Position numbers and translations under genes: made by a program
Shown here: positions 1 to 9,012 of the stretch, in pieces
Layout: the number at the start of each line of letters is the position of its first letter
How positions within the stretch are numbered: the stretch's first letter is position 1
The notes under the pieces: generated by a model
What the model was told of the DNA's origin: nothing
The model's input: the letters and a program-made list of their open reading frames with translations, nothing else
Database searches by the model: none
Source of the DNA: Ustilago trichophora
Lineage: Eukaryota > Basidiomycota > Ustilaginomycetes > Ustilaginales > Ustilaginaceae
Length of the DNA stretch: 64,000 bases
Direction: 5' to 3'
NCBI GenBank assembly: GCA_900323505.1
Contig: OOIN01000030.1
Location: forward strand, 310,001 to 374,000

Positions 1-372
1 AGCTCTTCCAGTCGCTCTCACATCTCACTTCACTGGAGCGAAGCAAGCCACAGACCATACACATAGAGGATCTGAAAGTGTCTAAGTTCTTGTCGTTGTC
101 ACACTAGTTGCACCATCAACCTTCTCGACTTCGCATCTCGACTCATCTCTGTGCATCACTTCTCACACTTTCTCAACATCGGGTGGAGTCTGCCAACGTC
201 AACCTCGACTAGATCAGAGCGAGAAGAGGTAGAGCGAGCAGGAAACATGCATTCATCTTGATCGCTCTAGAGACACATATACAGCATACGACCTTTGCAA
301 GCATCACACTTCCAGCGATCCTCCCATCTTCACCACCTCCGATCATTCCACAAAAAAACGCATCCACACAAC
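1..372. other. Upstream region of the MPS1-like gene
   Basis: No coding region is seen. The stretch is rich in CT/TC and contains CATC-type words, as is usual for smut promoters and 5' leaders. It lies directly before the ATG at 373 and presumably holds the promoter and 5' UTR of the kinase gene. No TATA box or other site can be assigned with confidence. Confidence 0.4.
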
Positions 373-3228
373 ATGACGGCGATATCTAGATATGCCGACC
401 TGCCACCATCCACGCCAGTCTTGCGGCGCTCGCTGCGACATGGTGGCCCCGTACCTGACCAAACACCAAGCGATCGTGTCAATGCTACGATCGGAGATAG
501 CCCTCTCCCACCCGCCCCTGTCAGCCACTTCCTCCGCGAGACAGATTCAGAAGCCGAAGCACCGGAGCCTCTCGTCACTGTACCTTCGACAAGAACACGA
601 CCATATCGCGTCTCAGCAGAAGCACATAGGGAAACACATTCGGATCCCTACGATGACTCTCCGGGTACAGGTCGCAAAGCTGTAGTGGCATCGCATCGAG
701 ACGAGCTGCAGCATCTGAGGGCTTCGAGCGTCTTCTGCGAGGTCCAGGCGCAGGAGCCATACAGTCGATCGTCGCCGTTTGCGTCGAGTGCTGCGACTTA
801 CCATGATGAGTTGCGATCGAAGAGTTCTCCTCCCCTTCGTACGGCTCCCAAGGCGACGCTTCACGCAGGTGCTTCACCATTGTACGATGGAGAATCTCGA
901 AGTAGCACAGTACTACCAACTCGCAGACGCAGCACCGAAAAGGCAGAGGACGAAGAGGAGAAGAAGGTCAGATACGCGCCCATCGAGGAGAGAGCTTCGA
1001 TCAAGCGTGACGCATCTGATGACATTCGAGCGGCCTCTTCTAGCGTCCCACCCGCTTCAGGATACCGCACGCCCGCTATGGCCGGTCGTGCGTTGAGGTC
1101 AAGTGCGACTGCCGCGCCAGCGACAGCTCAACGCAGTGCAGCACGAAGCCTACGCACTCTCACACGCTCCTCGAATCGTCACCCACCAGCAAGAAGGGTG
1201 GTGAGGAGGTACTCGGATGACGAAGACGACGACCTCGACGAGGACGGCGGTGGAGGAAATGGAGAGAACAAGAGCAGGGACGATGCTCAGAGCGCCAGTC
1301 CGGAGAACGGTCAGCGGCACCGGAACCAGGATGGCAGCTCCAACTCGGGGTCTGGCTCTGGATCAGGATACGGGTCTGGACCAGGAGCAGGGCCGGGATC
1401 CGCCGAGGCTGTTGAAAGGCCGGATCGACGATTCCTGCCGTATGGATATGATGCGGAGAAGGAAAAGATCAGGGCAGAGATGATGGAAAGAGCTTCGCTT
1501 GTGCGATCCCCCGGTCCAGAGTCGAGACTTTCACGGCACGAGGCGAGTGGAGACGCTGAGGATCAAGACTACGATATGCAGCCGCCACCGCCTCGTAGGA
1601 ACGAAGCTCATCCTCTTGCAAGGCGGCCCGTCTTGGAACCGGCAGCGTCGACAAGAGCAAACGGTTCTATCCACCCTACCAAGGGACAAGCTGAAGCCAT
1701 CCACAACTTCCTCGCATCCAGCGTTGCGGCACCCGTCGACCCTATGGCGCACCGTCGACTCGTGGCTCCTTTGGCAAACGATCTCCGAGCTGGCCAACGA
1801 GCCCCAGCGGGACCCATGGCGGTGAGCCACGACAGCCTCGTTCGAGCCTCGTCCTCCTTCTCCTCGACCTCTCTAGCCAGCACAGCAGGAGCAGCGCACG
1901 AATCCAATGACGAGCCTGCCGAAGAAGAAGCCGGCCGTCTGTACTCGGAGATTCGCAGCGAATCGATCTGGGCAGAAACGACACGACAGATGCGAAAGCC
2001 GCTCAGCCAGCAAGACCGCTTCATGAAGGAAATTGCCGGCTCAACACGCTGTGTCAAGCTTCCCGGCTTCAAGTTCCGACGCAAGCAGCTGACCAAGGGT
2101 GGATTTTCGACCGTCCACATCTTGCGCGGCCCCGTGAGCGAGAGGATGCGCAATCAGGAAACACAGCTGCTCGAAGAAGTCGCCGTGCCCGAGGAGCAGC
2201 AGGCGTTCTTTGCGCTCAAACAGGTCGATCTAAAGCAGATCGAAAGCGAGCAGGATAAGTTGGACCTGATTGCTGAAGCCAATTTGCTGCGCACGCTGTC
2301 GGATCTGGAGGGAAGTGAGATGTACCTTTTGCGGTACTTTGGTCACCACGTTTCTGTGGGTAACAACTCTTCCCCAGACAAGCTGCGTATCCTCATTGAG
2401 CTGGGAGAGAGCGATTTCGGCACCATCCTCGCCCAACAAGCGCCACTGCCGAGGGAATCCATTGCGCACTTTTTCCGCGAGATGCTGGAAGCGGTGCATT
2501 TCATCCACGAGGCCAACCTGGTCCATGCCGACTTGAAACCGGCCAACTTTTTGATGGTCGACAATCGGATCAAACTGATCGACTTTGGCATTTCGAAAAA
2601 GATCCCCAAGGGCACAGTCCACATTTCAAGAGACAACATCATTGGTACTCCAAACTATATGGCGCCCGAAGCGATCAAGATTGCACGTGCCAAGGGCAGG
2701 CGGGTGTATAAGGCGGGTAAGCCAAGTGATGTTTGGTCGTTGGGATGCATCTTGTATCAAATGATCTGGGGGAGACCGCCATTTGATCGGGTTCCGGCGA
2801 ACCGGAAACTAGAGGCGATTGTGGATCCGGATCACGAGATCCTTTGGAACCGATTTAGGGATCCAAGGTATCCAGAGAGGCTCGAGGTGGACGATGAGAT
2901 GCTGGACTGCGTTCAGGCGGCGCTTAGGTATGAAAGCGAGGAGAGGGCAACGATTCCTGAGCTGTTGAAGCATCCATTTTTGCGAAAGTACGCAGGAGGG
3001 GAGGAAGAGGACGAAGAGAGGATGGAAGAGGAACAAGTGGATCTCAACGAAGCGATCACGGTTTCAAGAGGGATGCTTCGTAGCCTCGTTGCCAGGCTCA
3101 GGACTCTGGCGCTGCAAGAGGAGATTACTGAGGAAAACGTGGTAGAGAGAGCAGATTTGCTCTTCTTAAACCTTCAACAAGCCCAACAAGCCCAACAGCG
3201 ACAGCAACAAGATCAACATCAGCAGTAG
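373..3228 (+). CDS. MPS1: Mps1/TTK-type dual-specificity protein kinase (spindle checkpoint)
   Basis: The 951-residue protein starts at the ATG at 373; the frame is open upstream but offers no other ATG. Residues 1 to about 560 are low-complexity, Ser/Arg/Pro-rich and probably disordered. The kinase domain spans about 565-870. It has a glycine loop (KGGFSTVH), the ALKQVDL lysine, the catalytic loop HADLKPANFL near residue 717, DFGISK near 736, and GTPNYMAPEA at the activation segment end. The Gly-Gly-Phe-Ser loop, HADLKPAN and the IGTPNYMAPE segment match the Mps1/TTK family. That family phosphorylates kinetochore Knl1 MELT repeats and acts in spindle pole duplication and the spindle assembly checkpoint. 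An acidic patch and a Gln-rich tail (about 3168-3226) follow the kinase. No TPR domain like that of animal TTK is apparent. Family assignment is from sequence; cell role is from family knowledge. Confidence 0.88.
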   Translation: MTAISRYADLPPSTPVLRRSLRHGGPVPDQTPSDRVNATIGDSPLPPAPVSHFLRETDSEAEAPEPLVTVPSTRTRPYRVSAEAHRETHSDPYDDSPGTGRKAVVASHRDELQHLRASSVFCEVQAQEPYSRSSPFASSAATYHDELRSKSSPPLRTAPKATLHAGASPLYDGESRSSTVLPTRRRSTEKAEDEEEKKVRYAPIEERASIKRDASDDIRAASSSVPPASGYRTPAMAGRALRSSATAAPATAQRSAARSLRTLTRSSNRHPPARRVVRRYSDDEDDDLDEDGGGGNGENKSRDDAQSASPENGQRHRNQDGSSNSGSGSGSGYGSGPGAGPGSAEAVERPDRRFLPYGYDAEKEKIRAEMMERASLVRSPGPESRLSRHEASGDAEDQDYDMQPPPPRRNEAHPLARRPVLEPAASTRANGSIHPTKGQAEAIHNFLASSVAAPVDPMAHRRLVAPLANDLRAGQRAPAGPMAVSHDSLVRASSSFSSTSLASTAGAAHESNDEPAEEEAGRLYSEIRSESIWAETTRQMRKPLSQQDRFMKEIAGSTRCVKLPGFKFRRKQLTKGGFSTVHILRGPVSERMRNQETQLLEEVAVPEEQQAFFALKQVDLKQIESEQDKLDLIAEANLLRTLSDLEGSEMYLLRYFGHHVSVGNNSSPDKLRILIELGESDFGTILAQQAPLPRESIAHFFREMLEAVHFIHEANLVHADLKPANFLMVDNRIKLIDFGISKKIPKGTVHISRDNIIGTPNYMAPEAIKIARAKGRRVYKAGKPSDVWSLGCILYQMIWGRPPFDRVPANRKLEAIVDPDHEILWNRFRDPRYPERLEVDDEMLDCVQAALRYESEERATIPELLKHPFLRKYAGGEEEDEERMEEEQVDLNEAITVSRGMLRSLVARLRTLALQEEITEENVVERADLLFLNLQQAQQAQQRQQQDQHQQ

Positions 3229-5646: not shown

Positions 5647-6020
5647 ATGTCCAGTGAGTCGCAACACCCCCGGCCTCTCGATCCCATATACCAACACTTT
5701 GAGGCATTGCTGCTGACCACAACTGTAATGCCGTGCTTTCTACAGGTGGACAACCTCTTGTAAAGGTATACTACTTTGCCTCGGTGCGCACAACCTTGGG
5801 CCTATCCTCCGAGACGCTCCCTCTTCCAAAAACGCCGTTCCCACTCACTGCGCTCATCTCGCTGATTGCTAGCAGATATTCCTCCCTCGGCGCTGAGACT
5901 GTATTCCAGGGCTGCAGGTGGAGCGTCGATAACACCTTGATCGAGATCGAAGACATTGCAGAGTGGACTCTGACGGGGGGAGAGGAAGTTGCTGCTATCC
6001 CACCTGTTTCCGGTGGCTAG
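5647..6020 (+). CDS. Molybdopterin synthase sulfur-carrier subunit (MoaD/MOCS2A type), two exons
   Basis: Exon 1 is only 7 bases (5647-5653, ATGTCCA), followed by a GTGAGT donor. The intron is 5654-5745, with a CTGAC branch word near 5713 and a CTACAG acceptor. Exon 2 is 5746-6020. The spliced 93-residue protein starts MSSGQPLVKVYYFASVRTTLG and ends in VSGG. The size, the beta-grasp opening (VKVYYFASVR), the central VDNTLIE-type region and the C-terminal Gly-Gly are those of MoaD. The terminal glycine is adenylated and thiocarboxylated to carry sulfur into molybdopterin in the cytosol. Without the tiny exon, the frame lacks an ATG and would need a GTG at 5733, which supports the splice model. 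The stop lies 8 bases before the ATG of the next gene. The MoaE partner is not in this window. Confidence 0.85.
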
Positions 6021-6028
6021 ATCCCGCT

Positions 6029-6826
6029 ATGTCGTCTTCAACGAAGCCAGTTGAAGTCACAGCGACCCAAGAGCTGGCGCAAAAGCCGCTACTACCAGCA
6101 CCCCAAGTATTCAGCAAATTCTCAGGACATCACTTTTCTCCGTCGCCCTTAGGAGTCGATTCAAACCTGCTCATTCTCCTCCATGGACTAGGCGATTCTG
6201 ATATAGGGTTCTTCAACCTTGGAAAGAACCTTCAAAAGACACTTCCACAAACAGCAGTACTGACTCTGCAAGCGCCGCACCTGGTACCCTTCCTAGATGG
6301 TCCTCATTGGATGTGGTACCCCTCTTTCGACCAATTCGGCGAGCTTTTTACCAAACCAAATCCGACAGCCACTGTTGCGGGTTTCCAAGCGGTCTTGGAG
6401 CATCTGGTAGAAAAATGCGGCTGGGCATCAAGCAGTATACACACCTTTGGCTTTGGACAAGGGGCAACCATCGCCCTCGAAACGCTGGTTTCATGGACCA
6501 AATCGCACAAGCAATCGCTCGGCACCATTGTTTCCATCTCTGGCGAGCTCATCTCCCATCCCACACTGGACAAACCTAGTCCTACACCAATCCTTCACAT
6601 CTACCGTTCCCCCACAGATATTCCTCAAACAGCCTCCAAGTGGGCATCCCATCGCAAAGCCAGCTCCGCCTTGGCACTTGAAAGGCTACCCCTCACCTCC
6701 GATGGACAGGAAGAAGCAATGCTAAGGGGAAAAGAGTGGGACGAAGTCATGCGATTCTGGAGTCGGTTTTTGCGCAACAGAAGCACATGGGAGTTGAAAA
6801 ACGAGGTGGTACAATTGGCAAGTTAA
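6029..6826 (+). CDS. Alpha/beta hydrolase of the phospholipase/carboxylesterase type, nucleophile Ser replaced
   Basis: The ATG at 6029 gives 265 residues. An alpha/beta hydrolase core is visible: [12 protein letters not shown] near residues 46-57 (oxyanion strand and HG loop), a [15 protein letters not shown] loop, and the elbow at 141-145. The elbow reads G-F-G-Q-G-A where acyl-protein thioesterases and carboxylesterases have G-F-S-Q-G; the codon is GGA, so Gly143 stands in for the catalytic serine. The fold family (abhydrolase_2, acyl-protein thioesterase-like) is clear, but hydrolase activity by the usual triad is doubtful. It could act as a binding protein or use another residue. The gene starts 8 bases after the MoaD-like stop, and its TAA overlaps the stop of the convergent histone H4 variant. 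Substrate unknown. Confidence 0.8.
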
Positions 6827-7554
6827 AAGTGGTAGAGGGTACGACCGTGCAGTTTGAGGGCATAGATGACGTCCATTGTTTGCACTGTTTTACGGTTGCA
6901 GTGCTCTACACCGTGTCGCCCGGCACCGGAAGAGAGGTAGGAGAGAAGGTGGCACTGTTAGCCTGAGTTGGCAGAGCACATGTTGAAGAAGTACAAAGAG
7001 GGAGGCGGGGCAGAAACTCACGGGAGTAGACAACAGCATCCCGTACAGCAACTGTCAAAAACTCTCGCAGAATGAAACGGCTTTCTTCAAAGACCGTTCC
7101 AGCGATTCCTGTCCCATGATATCACGATGGCGAAGCGTCACATCGGTTAAACAGAGCGTCAGAAAGTTTCGCAGAGGGAAAAAAAAAGCGCATGAGGTGT
7201 GGGAGTGAGGGTTGGGGATGCTGCTCACGTTTTACTCCTCCCCGACGAGCGAGTCTGCGGATAGACCCCTTGGAGATGCGTTCCAAAGCAGATCGTTCAG
7301 CGCGGTACCGCTTAGTCGCCCGAGCTGCTCGGCCGTTGCCTTGGCCTGGGAGGCACTTTATGCTCTGCACCAGACAAGTCATTCGGTGTCAGTATTCGAG
7401 TCGGAGCTGGAACGATGCGAATGGGATGGAATGCTTACTGTGTAAGTTTCTAGCATTTGATGGAATGATCATTTGAACAGTGGGGAGGTTGTAAATCGGG
7501 GCTCAAGCTGTGATGTACGAGGGAAGTGGAGGATAAGAACTTACTTGCGCCCAT
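6823..7554 (-). CDS. Divergent histone H4 variant, four exons
   Basis: No single open frame shows this gene; splicing the minus strand does. Exon 1 is 7554-7545 (ATGGGCGCAA, donor GTAAGT). Exon 2 is 7345-7229 (acceptor CCTCCCAG, donor GTGAGC). Exon 3 is 7108-7022 (acceptor GGGACAG, donor GTGAGT). Exon 4 is 6905-6823 (acceptor GTGTAG; a CTAAC branch word lies upstream). All three introns are phase 1. The 98-residue product carries [13 protein letters not shown] (H4 alpha-1), [11 protein letters not shown] and [10 protein letters not shown] (alpha-2), [15 protein letters not shown] (alpha-3) and GRTLYHF (C-terminus). By hand, about 42 of 67 fold positions equal canonical H4. The tail begins [18 protein letters not shown]: counterparts of K5, K8, K12 and K20 are gone and only the K16 position is kept. 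The far N-terminus is the least certain part: an alternative start at 7382, unspliced into exon 2, is possible. Canonical H4 is near invariant, so this is a variant with a special chromatin role or a gene under relaxed constraint. Confidence 0.85.
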
Positions 7555-7802
7555 CGTGACCGATCTGCGACTATGAAGTGTTGATGGTTCGTTGAGAGGG
7601 AAGGAAAAGCGTCGACAAGCCACAAACACACACACACACACACACTTCAACACTTGGTGCTACAAACATGATTCCATTCCTTCCATGTGTCCACAAAGCG
7701 ATGTGTCCTAAAAAGCAATCTTTGTCACCAAAGGCGAAATCATCCATGCAACTGTATCCCGCACAACCGCAAGCCAAGAGGAAAGCATTATGAGTCAAAA
7801 TG
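7555..7802. other. Upstream region of the H4 variant with a (CA)n microsatellite
   Basis: A 248-base gap lies between the RNase H2C-like gene and the H4 variant, which are in tandem on the minus strand. A (CA)n run of about ten units lies at 7625-7645. No other element is recognised. It presumably contains the H4 variant promoter. Confidence 0.45.
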
Positions 7803-8598
7803 TCAGCGCGAAAACTTGACACGCTTTGTGTGCGTAAGCATATCTATCTGAAGCATAGGATGAAAGGTCTGGGCGATTCAAACTTACCAGCGGCGCAACT
7901 ACACCATGCCATTCCCCGACGGTTCTAAAGAATGTATCGTCACCTTTGTCTATCGGTCCATCTGGACCCCAGATTGTTAAAGTGGAGTTGATGACGTTGG
8001 CTATTGAGCTGATTCTGATCTTTGGTACTCTGTCATCTGAATTTTTGTCTGGCTGCTCTTCTGCAGGTGCAACGGGCTCGGGTTCGGGGGAGACTTCTTC
8101 TAGTTCTGGAGAGGCAACGTCATAGTCGGACTTCTCGTCATTTTCGTCGTCGTCACTATCCATGGAAAACTTTTGCTGTCGCGCCGGAGGCTTTGGCGCG
8201 GAGATTCTCTGTCGCTTCTTCTCCCTTTCTTGCTCTTGTATTCTACGTTCTGCACTACCGCTTGATTCGGCTGCGGGAATGGGCGCAATCCGAGACAAGG
8301 ATACAATTTTTGCTACATACCCCTCAGGGAGCGGAAGAGGTGTGGATTGAATTGCTCTCCCCCTGAAAGCAGAGATGGAAGTTTGACTCGCTTCATCCGT
8401 CAAGGATGCAGAGGATGATTTGGTGGAGCTAGAGTCGGCGGGGCGCTGGACGAGAAACGAATCGACTGGTGCAGGTCCGTTATAGTCTATGGTGAAGGGC
8501 ATCAGATTTGCGCTGCATTCGGGTAGGTTGTCAGAAGGAGAGCACAAAGAGAGGTCCATCCGAAGCGGTAATAGTTCCACCTGATTGCTTGCCGTCAT
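7803..8598 (-). CDS. Ribonuclease H2 subunit C (RNASEH2C/Rnh203-like)
   Basis: The start at 8598 (MTASNQVELLPLRM) follows a non-conserved in-frame leader. The N-terminal segment has the family signature MPFTIDYNGPAPVDSFLVQRP and then AFRGRAIQSTPLPLPEGY. A charged, disordered middle follows (QEQEREKKRQR, acidic Ser/Glu/Pro stretch), and the last conserved block is LTIWGPDGP...FFRTVGEWHGVVAPL. That layout is typical of RNASEH2C, a non-catalytic subunit of the nuclear enzyme that removes ribonucleotides from DNA. A GTAAGT donor follows exactly after VVAPL (7887), so a short last exon is likely. A 40-base intron (7887-7848, CTTCAG acceptor) would give IDMLTHTKRVKFSR and a stop at 7803; acceptors farther on are also possible. 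Unspliced, the frame runs to 7795. The C-terminal end is therefore provisional. Confidence 0.8.
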
Positions 8599-9012
8599 TA
8601 TGTTGTTATGTTGTGAAAATAAGATGGAGGGAAGCGAAACAAGGAGGAGCACGGAAGAAGGGTTCAGAAAGACCAACACTTTGTCTCAACAGGACGCGCT
8701 CTTTACGCGTAGTCGTAGCGTGTAAATTGTCTTCTCAGTATGACTTCTCGTGCGGAAGGATGCAAGATTCGGCTCCGCGTGATCGGAAGATTCGACACCA
8801 CTTTTTAAGAAAAAAAAAAGGTACCAACAGCAGAGGGCGGCGTGAAATGAGAAGAAAGTTTTTCGATATTTGCCAAAAAAAGCGAGTGGGTGTTTGTGTG
8901 TGCCATACGGAACCATGATGAGGACAAGGTTCCACACATTGCACCATCCGTGCGCCCTCTTCGTTACCTCCATCATACCCCGTTTCGATCCATATACATA
9001 CCGTATTTCAAC
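8599..9012. promoter_or_regulatory. Divergent intergenic region between RNase H2C and SSZ1
   Basis: About 410 bases separate two divergently transcribed genes, so both promoters must lie here. It contains an A-run near 8810-8820 and pyrimidine-rich stretches just upstream of the SSZ1 ATG. No defined factor site is claimed. Confidence 0.5.

Follow-up and report, generated by a model that had tools for sequence, protein, structure and literature searches.

A divergent histone H4 variant of smut fungi, conserved under purifying selection and best read as a five-exon gene with a micro-exon

Introduction

Few proteins evolve as slowly as histone H4, and variants of it are rare. The closest described system is fungal H4E (hheA in Aspergillus nidulans, hH4v in Neurospora crassa), which is described from the Pezizomycotina, the basal Taphrinomycotina and the Glomeromycota (PMC10878826). 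According to the same report, H4E is nuclear, binds H3, is low in mycelia and well expressed at 37 °C under nitrogen starvation, and can be deleted without phenotype. Its gene carries introns of phases 2, 1, 2, 0, 0, 0 and 0, the core introns i4 to i7 all being phase 0, and trees that drew on the canonical H4 of 497 fungal species gave its authors no stable result (PMC10878826). Trypanosoma H4V, human H4G and the Oikopleura testis H4, as described there, are likewise rare H4 paralogues of specialized use; they lie nearer their own canonical H4 (80%, 85% and three residues, respectively) than the smut variant analyzed here, which is about 48% identical to its own. A survey published in 2011, which examined the introns of histone genes in fungi and covered U. 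maydis and Malassezia globosa, concluded that most histone-gene introns of Basidiomycota and Pezizomycotina were gained independently (PMC3029354). The main text of the H4E paper contains no word beginning with basidiomyc, ustilag or smut (PMC10878826). Within the open-access literature we found no report of an H4 variant of Ustilago, teliospores or Ustilaginomycotina, nor, in the broader open-access H4 variant literature, a title naming a smut H4 variant.

Here we describe a divergent H4 gene in a 64,000-nucleotide stretch of Ustilago trichophora DNA (the window; contig C29:310001-374000 of a 38.8-Mb, 45-contig genome assembly). Its sequence points to an H4 variant lineage of smuts that is new, of a kind already known from H4E and probably independent of H4E.

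Results and Discussion

The Variant Is Present Once in Each of Two Apparent Subgenomes

When the genome was searched at the DNA level with the 2401 bases around the variant gene, two places were returned: the gene itself and C26:317785-320132, which is 79% identical over the full 2401-base query and holds a second copy of the variant (C26:319004-318302) in the same gene neighborhood. Genome-wide, 26 of 27 core-histone matches pair by score and frame, as judged by eye. Thus, the assembly appears to contain two diverged subgenomes, and the C26 copy therefore provides a second record of selection on the variant gene. Ten matches were listed in a genome protein search with the variant. They comprise canonical H4 on C10 and on C11, three variant exons on each of C26 and C29, and two weak matches (E 1.7 and 4.1). 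The two tiny exons of the variant are missing from these matches because they are too short. The matches therefore indicate one canonical and one variant H4 gene per subgenome.

As a general observation, the assembly, 38.8 Mb in size, resembles a combination of two diverged smut genomes (a hybrid, a dikaryon or a mixed culture), exemplified by the contig pairs C26/C29, C10/C11, C37/C39, C21/C27 and C1/C2. The three gene pairs neighboring the variant on C29 and C26 have dS values of 0.33-0.41. According to a survey of 17 Ustilaginaceae genomes, their sizes span 18-36 Mb, and Ustilago xerochloae, at 36.1 Mb, is marked as diploid.

The Gene Is Best Read as Five Exons Including a Micro-Exon

The initial annotation had spliced the minus strand into four exons (7554-7545, 7345-7229, 7108-7022 and 6905-6823; 10 + 117 + 87 + 83 = 297 nt) with introns of 199, 120 and 116 nt, all phase 1, to give a 98-residue protein. 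When rebuilt, this splice indeed gave an open, H4-like frame with GT-AG introns, and its last two introns are found again in the C26 copy, as are its core and C-terminal exons; its 5′ end, where a micro-exon was probably missed, most likely does not stand. When the C29 and C26 copies were aligned under the four-exon model, exons were 85-95% identical (9/10 for the 10-nt exon 1) and introns 66-77% identical with 5-18 gapped columns, the splice sites being kept. The supposed first intron (7544-7346) contains a conserved island, CTAG/AAAC.T.CAC./GTAAGC, corresponding to an 11-nt micro-exon flanked by an acceptor and a donor. A second conserved island, the in-frame AGC.TAAAGTG.CTCCCAG, lies immediately before the acceptor proposed earlier. 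This intron is best split into introns of 95 and 74 nt around 7449-7439, with the next exon starting at 7364, 19 nt upstream of the former exon start at 7345. The divergent H4 gene is thus best read as five exons on the minus strand, encoding 108 residues (Table 1), with the same exon lengths in both copies and with intron phases of 1, 0, 1 and 1. The canonical smut H4 gene, in contrast, has one phase-0 intron, after RHRK, and the four introns of the variant lie elsewhere.

Table 1. Exons and introns of the five-exon model and adjoining genes (window positions)
Feature	Position	Strand	Length (nt)	Phase	Details
Exon 1	7545..7554	-	10		ATG start; encodes MGA + 1 nt; ATG, donor and length kept in C26
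Intron 1	7544-7450	-	95	1	GTAAGT...CTAG
Exon 2 (micro-exon)	7439..7449	-	11		AAACTTACACA; length, acceptor and donor same in C26
Intron 2	7438-7365	-	74	0	GTAAGC...GCAG
Exon 3	7229..7364	-	136		Remaining N-tail, KRY patch and first helix; open frame in C29 and C26
Intron 3	7228-7109	-	120	1
Exon 4	7022..7108	-	87		Long central helix; kept in C26
Intron 4	7021-6906	-	116	1
Exon 5	6823..6905	-	83 (incl. stop)		Ends GRTLYHF; 79/83 nt kept in C26 (0.952)
RNase H2 subunit C (upstream)	7795..8679	-			PF08615, 53.6 bits; also in C26
Phospholipase/carboxylesterase (convergent, downstream)	5963..6826	+			PF02230, 59.6 bits; also in C26

We enumerated gene models whose start, donors and acceptors are conserved in both copies and applied our own donor/acceptor rule. 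Thirty-five in-frame models are conserved in C29 and C26, and two pass the splice-site rule in both, the four-exon and the five-exon model. The five-exon model is preferred because it alone yields the N-terminus annotated in other smuts, namely MGGKTFTSGKCLPTQ in P. hubeiensis (P0002) and MGGKTFTSIKHLPGQ in Ustilago sp. UG-2017b (P0107); the C26 copy begins MGGKTFTSVKCLPGQ. Specifically, the micro-exon encodes KTYT/KTFT, fitting the annotated MGGKTFTS of both relatives. The SIKCLPGQ stretch of exon 3 is also found in P0001, P0002 and P0107, in K. brasiliensis P0001 as SVKCLPGQ after a different annotated start.

The acceptor ending the intron at 7346 drops the in-frame SIKCLPG, which is conserved in C26, P0001, P0002 and P0107, and P. 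hubeiensis has Pro-Thr at this point, the presumed codons of which leave no AG. On these grounds this acceptor was set aside; splicing there could occur as a minor form. The alternative start at 7382 that had been put forward is not conserved: in C26 this position reads GTG, and a TAG stands in frame directly ahead of exon 3. Once the micro-exon had been recognized, a 14-nt exon 1 using a weak second donor was dropped.

The Variant Forms Its Own Branch in Smuts

A public protein search gave 74 matches from 79 candidates; inspection of 11 yielded at least four relatives of the variant, K. brasiliensis P0001, P. hubeiensis P0002 and the unnamed P0022 and P0044. A profile search scored 7989 candidates, of which 7629 passed, and among the 120 listed, four further ones were inspected, adding one relative, Ustilago sp. 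UG-2017b P0107, so that the named relatives come from three smuts. When only the N-tail was used as query (C26 protein, residues 1-42), no candidate shared three 5-residue words with it. The exon 4 stretch is present in all five relatives (P0001, P0002, P0022, P0044 and P0107), and the exon 5 protein end is identical in P0022 and nearly identical in P0044, both of which read through intron 4, consistent with its phase-1 junction. The window variant is identical to P0107 at 61/81 positions, to P0002 at 57/78, to P0001 at 60/74, to P0022 at 49/54 and to P0044 at 45/53, as compared with 48/101 for the canonical H4 of its own genome. Since the canonical H4 of this genome is identical to an animal H4 at 95/103 positions, the variant, at 61/81 against that of UG-2017b, has diverged further among smuts than canonical H4 has across kingdoms, and yet it is under purifying selection (see below).

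The initial annotation had expected the gene to be awkward for gene finders, and all three named annotated relatives do depart at the exon 4/5 junction: P0001 and P0107 enter intron 4, and in P0002 two residues stand in place of the nine in the window. A histone gene with tiny exons thus serves as an example of mis-modeling.

A tree was built from 41 chosen rows, including five variants and leaving out the fragments P0022 and P0044. The five variants form one branch with support of 100/99 and a stem of 0.73, separate from canonical H4, in a tree of which 23 of the 38 inner branches, including the backbone, remain open and the bootstrap has not settled.

The Variant Is under Purifying Selection

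Of 109 codons, counting the stop, 37 differ between C29 and C26, and five of these differences alter the residue; by codon position, the differences number 4/2/32. The Nei-Gojobori (NG86) estimates are dN 0.021 and dS 0.560, giving a dN/dS of 0.038 (bootstrap 95% 0.007-0.088), and YN00 gives dN 0.0255 and dS 0.434, a ratio of about 0.06. The NG86 ratios of neighboring genes are all higher (TPR 0.093, esterase 0.139, RNase H2C 0.332). For the canonical H4 pair, dN is 0.004 and dS 0.051. The N-tail is slightly looser than the rest, with three of the five amino acid differences falling within codons 1-15. Thus, the H4 variant is under purifying selection. The proposal of a specialized H4 variant is borne out to the extent that the protein is conserved, strongly constrained, present in other smuts and encoded beside one canonical H4 per subgenome.

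The Histone Fold Is Kept and the Tail Is Changed

Against PDB chains, the best match of the variant is histone H4 (residues 16-108, E 4.2e-28), and every one of the best 60 of 90 distinct PDB matches is named H4. Compared with an animal H4 reference, the fold is identical at 41/71 positions (residues 25-95), close to the 42 of 67 counted previously. Residues kept are R35, R36, R39, R40, K44, R45, D68, H75, R78, K79, Y88, K91 and Y98; those changed include G56F, V60E, E63T, N64V, T71V, E74Q, K77N and R92L. The DNA-facing residues of H4 are R35, R36, R39, R40, R45 and R78, and the variant shares the histone fold and the DNA-facing arginines with the canonical smut H4. Some of these substitutions in the fold, V60E, T71V, K77N and R92L among them, could make nucleosomes weaker. 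The C terminus, GRTLYHF, is two residues shorter than that of canonical H4; it is the GRTLY.F end of H4 that Asf1 holds.

In H4, K5 and K12 are Hat1 sites and K20 is a methylation site. The earlier view that the tail lysines are gone proved half right, since the 5′ gene structure behind it was most likely wrong: K5, K8, K12 and K20 indeed have no lysine counterpart, but the tail is longer than had been thought and carries conserved lysines at positions 4 and 10 and a K16-like lysine. Within the variant group, K4 is conserved in the four of four rows that reach it and K10 in five of five. A 24-residue lead-in precedes the KRY patch, and the N-tail before IRRL comprises 41 residues with four lysines versus 34 residues with six in the canonical H4 of the same genome. 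The basic-patch signature of H4, GAKRH, is absent in its exact form and the patch is partly kept, as ATKRY in the window and (K/R)RY in relatives. Deriving (K/R)RY from KRHR would take a one-residue deletion before helix 1, and the pairing of KRY is our own reading; the automatic alignment slid the patch by one residue, so that the K16-like lysine appears only when the proteins are aligned by KR(H/Y).

A Putative Replacement H4 for Specialized Chromatin

Since the variant retains the fold and DNA contacts but not the tail marks, our best reading is a replacement-type H4 variant for specialized chromatin. We consider it likely that this conserved, divergent, five-exon H4 of smuts replaces canonical H4 alongside H3 in a small, specialized share of nucleosomes. 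The variant would pair with H3 where canonical H4 otherwise does, and would likely take the normal H3-H4 chaperone route, as suggested by the kept DNA-facing arginines and Asf1-held end. Given that K5, K8, K12 and K20 have no lysine counterpart, the resulting nucleosomes would retain a basic patch but not the customary acetyl and K20 signals of the H4 tail. By analogy with H4E only, the gene is likely low-expressed and used outside ordinary growth, in starvation, mating or spore stages. In genetically tractable smuts, the variant would permit a direct test of an H4 without the usual tail marks. A more far-reaching version can be put forward only tentatively, as a possibility we would not favor as a whole: that smuts possess a private second H4, free of K5/K8/K12 acetylation and K20 methylation, displaying instead a conserved code of its own in the tail (MGGKTFTS.KCLPGQ), setting apart a particular chromatin state of the life cycle and representing an H4E-independent lineage of the Basidiomycota.

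Alternatively, the variant might be the smut branch of the ascomycete H4E/Neurospora hH4v family, descended from an old fungal duplication. By the published description of H4E, the kind of change is the same: both are divergent paralogues beside a canonical H4 that keep the fold, have a longer, lysine-poor N-tail and contain many introns not in common with canonical H4. However, introns i4 to i7 of H4E are phase 0 whereas the smut core introns are phase 1, the exon lengths differ, and the C-tail is longer than canonical in H4E and shorter in the smut variant. The MG.KT.TS.K tail seems particular to the smut group, H4E being compared here through its published description. The lack of a stable tree for H4E also counts against this placement (PMC10878826), which we judge unlikely.

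We regard it as improbable that the variant instead serves CENP-A, the centromeric H3, as its dedicated H4 partner. Each subgenome does carry, on the same contig as the variant, a CENP-A-like gene (C26:611914 and C29:586099), but these lie ∼270-295 kb from the variant, a distance that gives no linkage; moreover, to our knowledge, CENP-A pairs with canonical H4 in the species studied. It is very improbable that the variant is a histone-fold protein with a non-nucleosomal role, such as one in a TAF-like or CENP-T-like complex. CENP-T_C is the only Pfam match of the 108-residue variant up to E 0.01, yet its score, 23.5 bits, is below the 28.1 cut-off and canonical H4 scores higher, at 31.5 bits, so that the match does not identify a CENP-T-like protein; the kept DNA-facing residues and H4 C-terminal end also argue against this role. 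Separate CENP-T_C matches above the cut-off fall in two long open frames, one of 1142 aa on C39 and one of 1135 aa on C37. Finally, a decaying pseudogene, to which the lack of a Pfam match over the cut-off and the damaged 3′ ends of the three relatives' annotated models might point, and for which the initial annotation had looked to frame-breaking changes and a neutral dN/dS, can be dismissed, as the ratio is 0.038, both frames are intact and the splice sites are kept.

Neighboring Genes and Other Features

Scanning 7300-8000 with four motif patterns (pheromone response, MCB, TATA and b-site) gave one match, a b-site-like one at 7962 (minus strand) that falls within the upstream RNase H2C gene. 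The RNase H2C open frame reaches into an intron at its 3′ end. Between the two subgenomes this subunit is evolving rapidly, with 75% protein identity and a dN/dS of 0.33, and the aligned stretch may hold a few intron codons. A second H3 gene, distinct from the H3 adjoining canonical H4, is present at C27:519267 and C21:203083; the frame of the former departs from H3 past about residue 90, where there is probably an intron. At 295-3228 (plus strand), the window contains an open frame of 977 residues ending in a kinase domain that presumably resembles the spindle-checkpoint kinase Mps1. At the 3′ end of the variant gene, a single TTAA (6823-6826), also present in C26, forms the stop of both the H4 variant and the convergent esterase, one on each strand.
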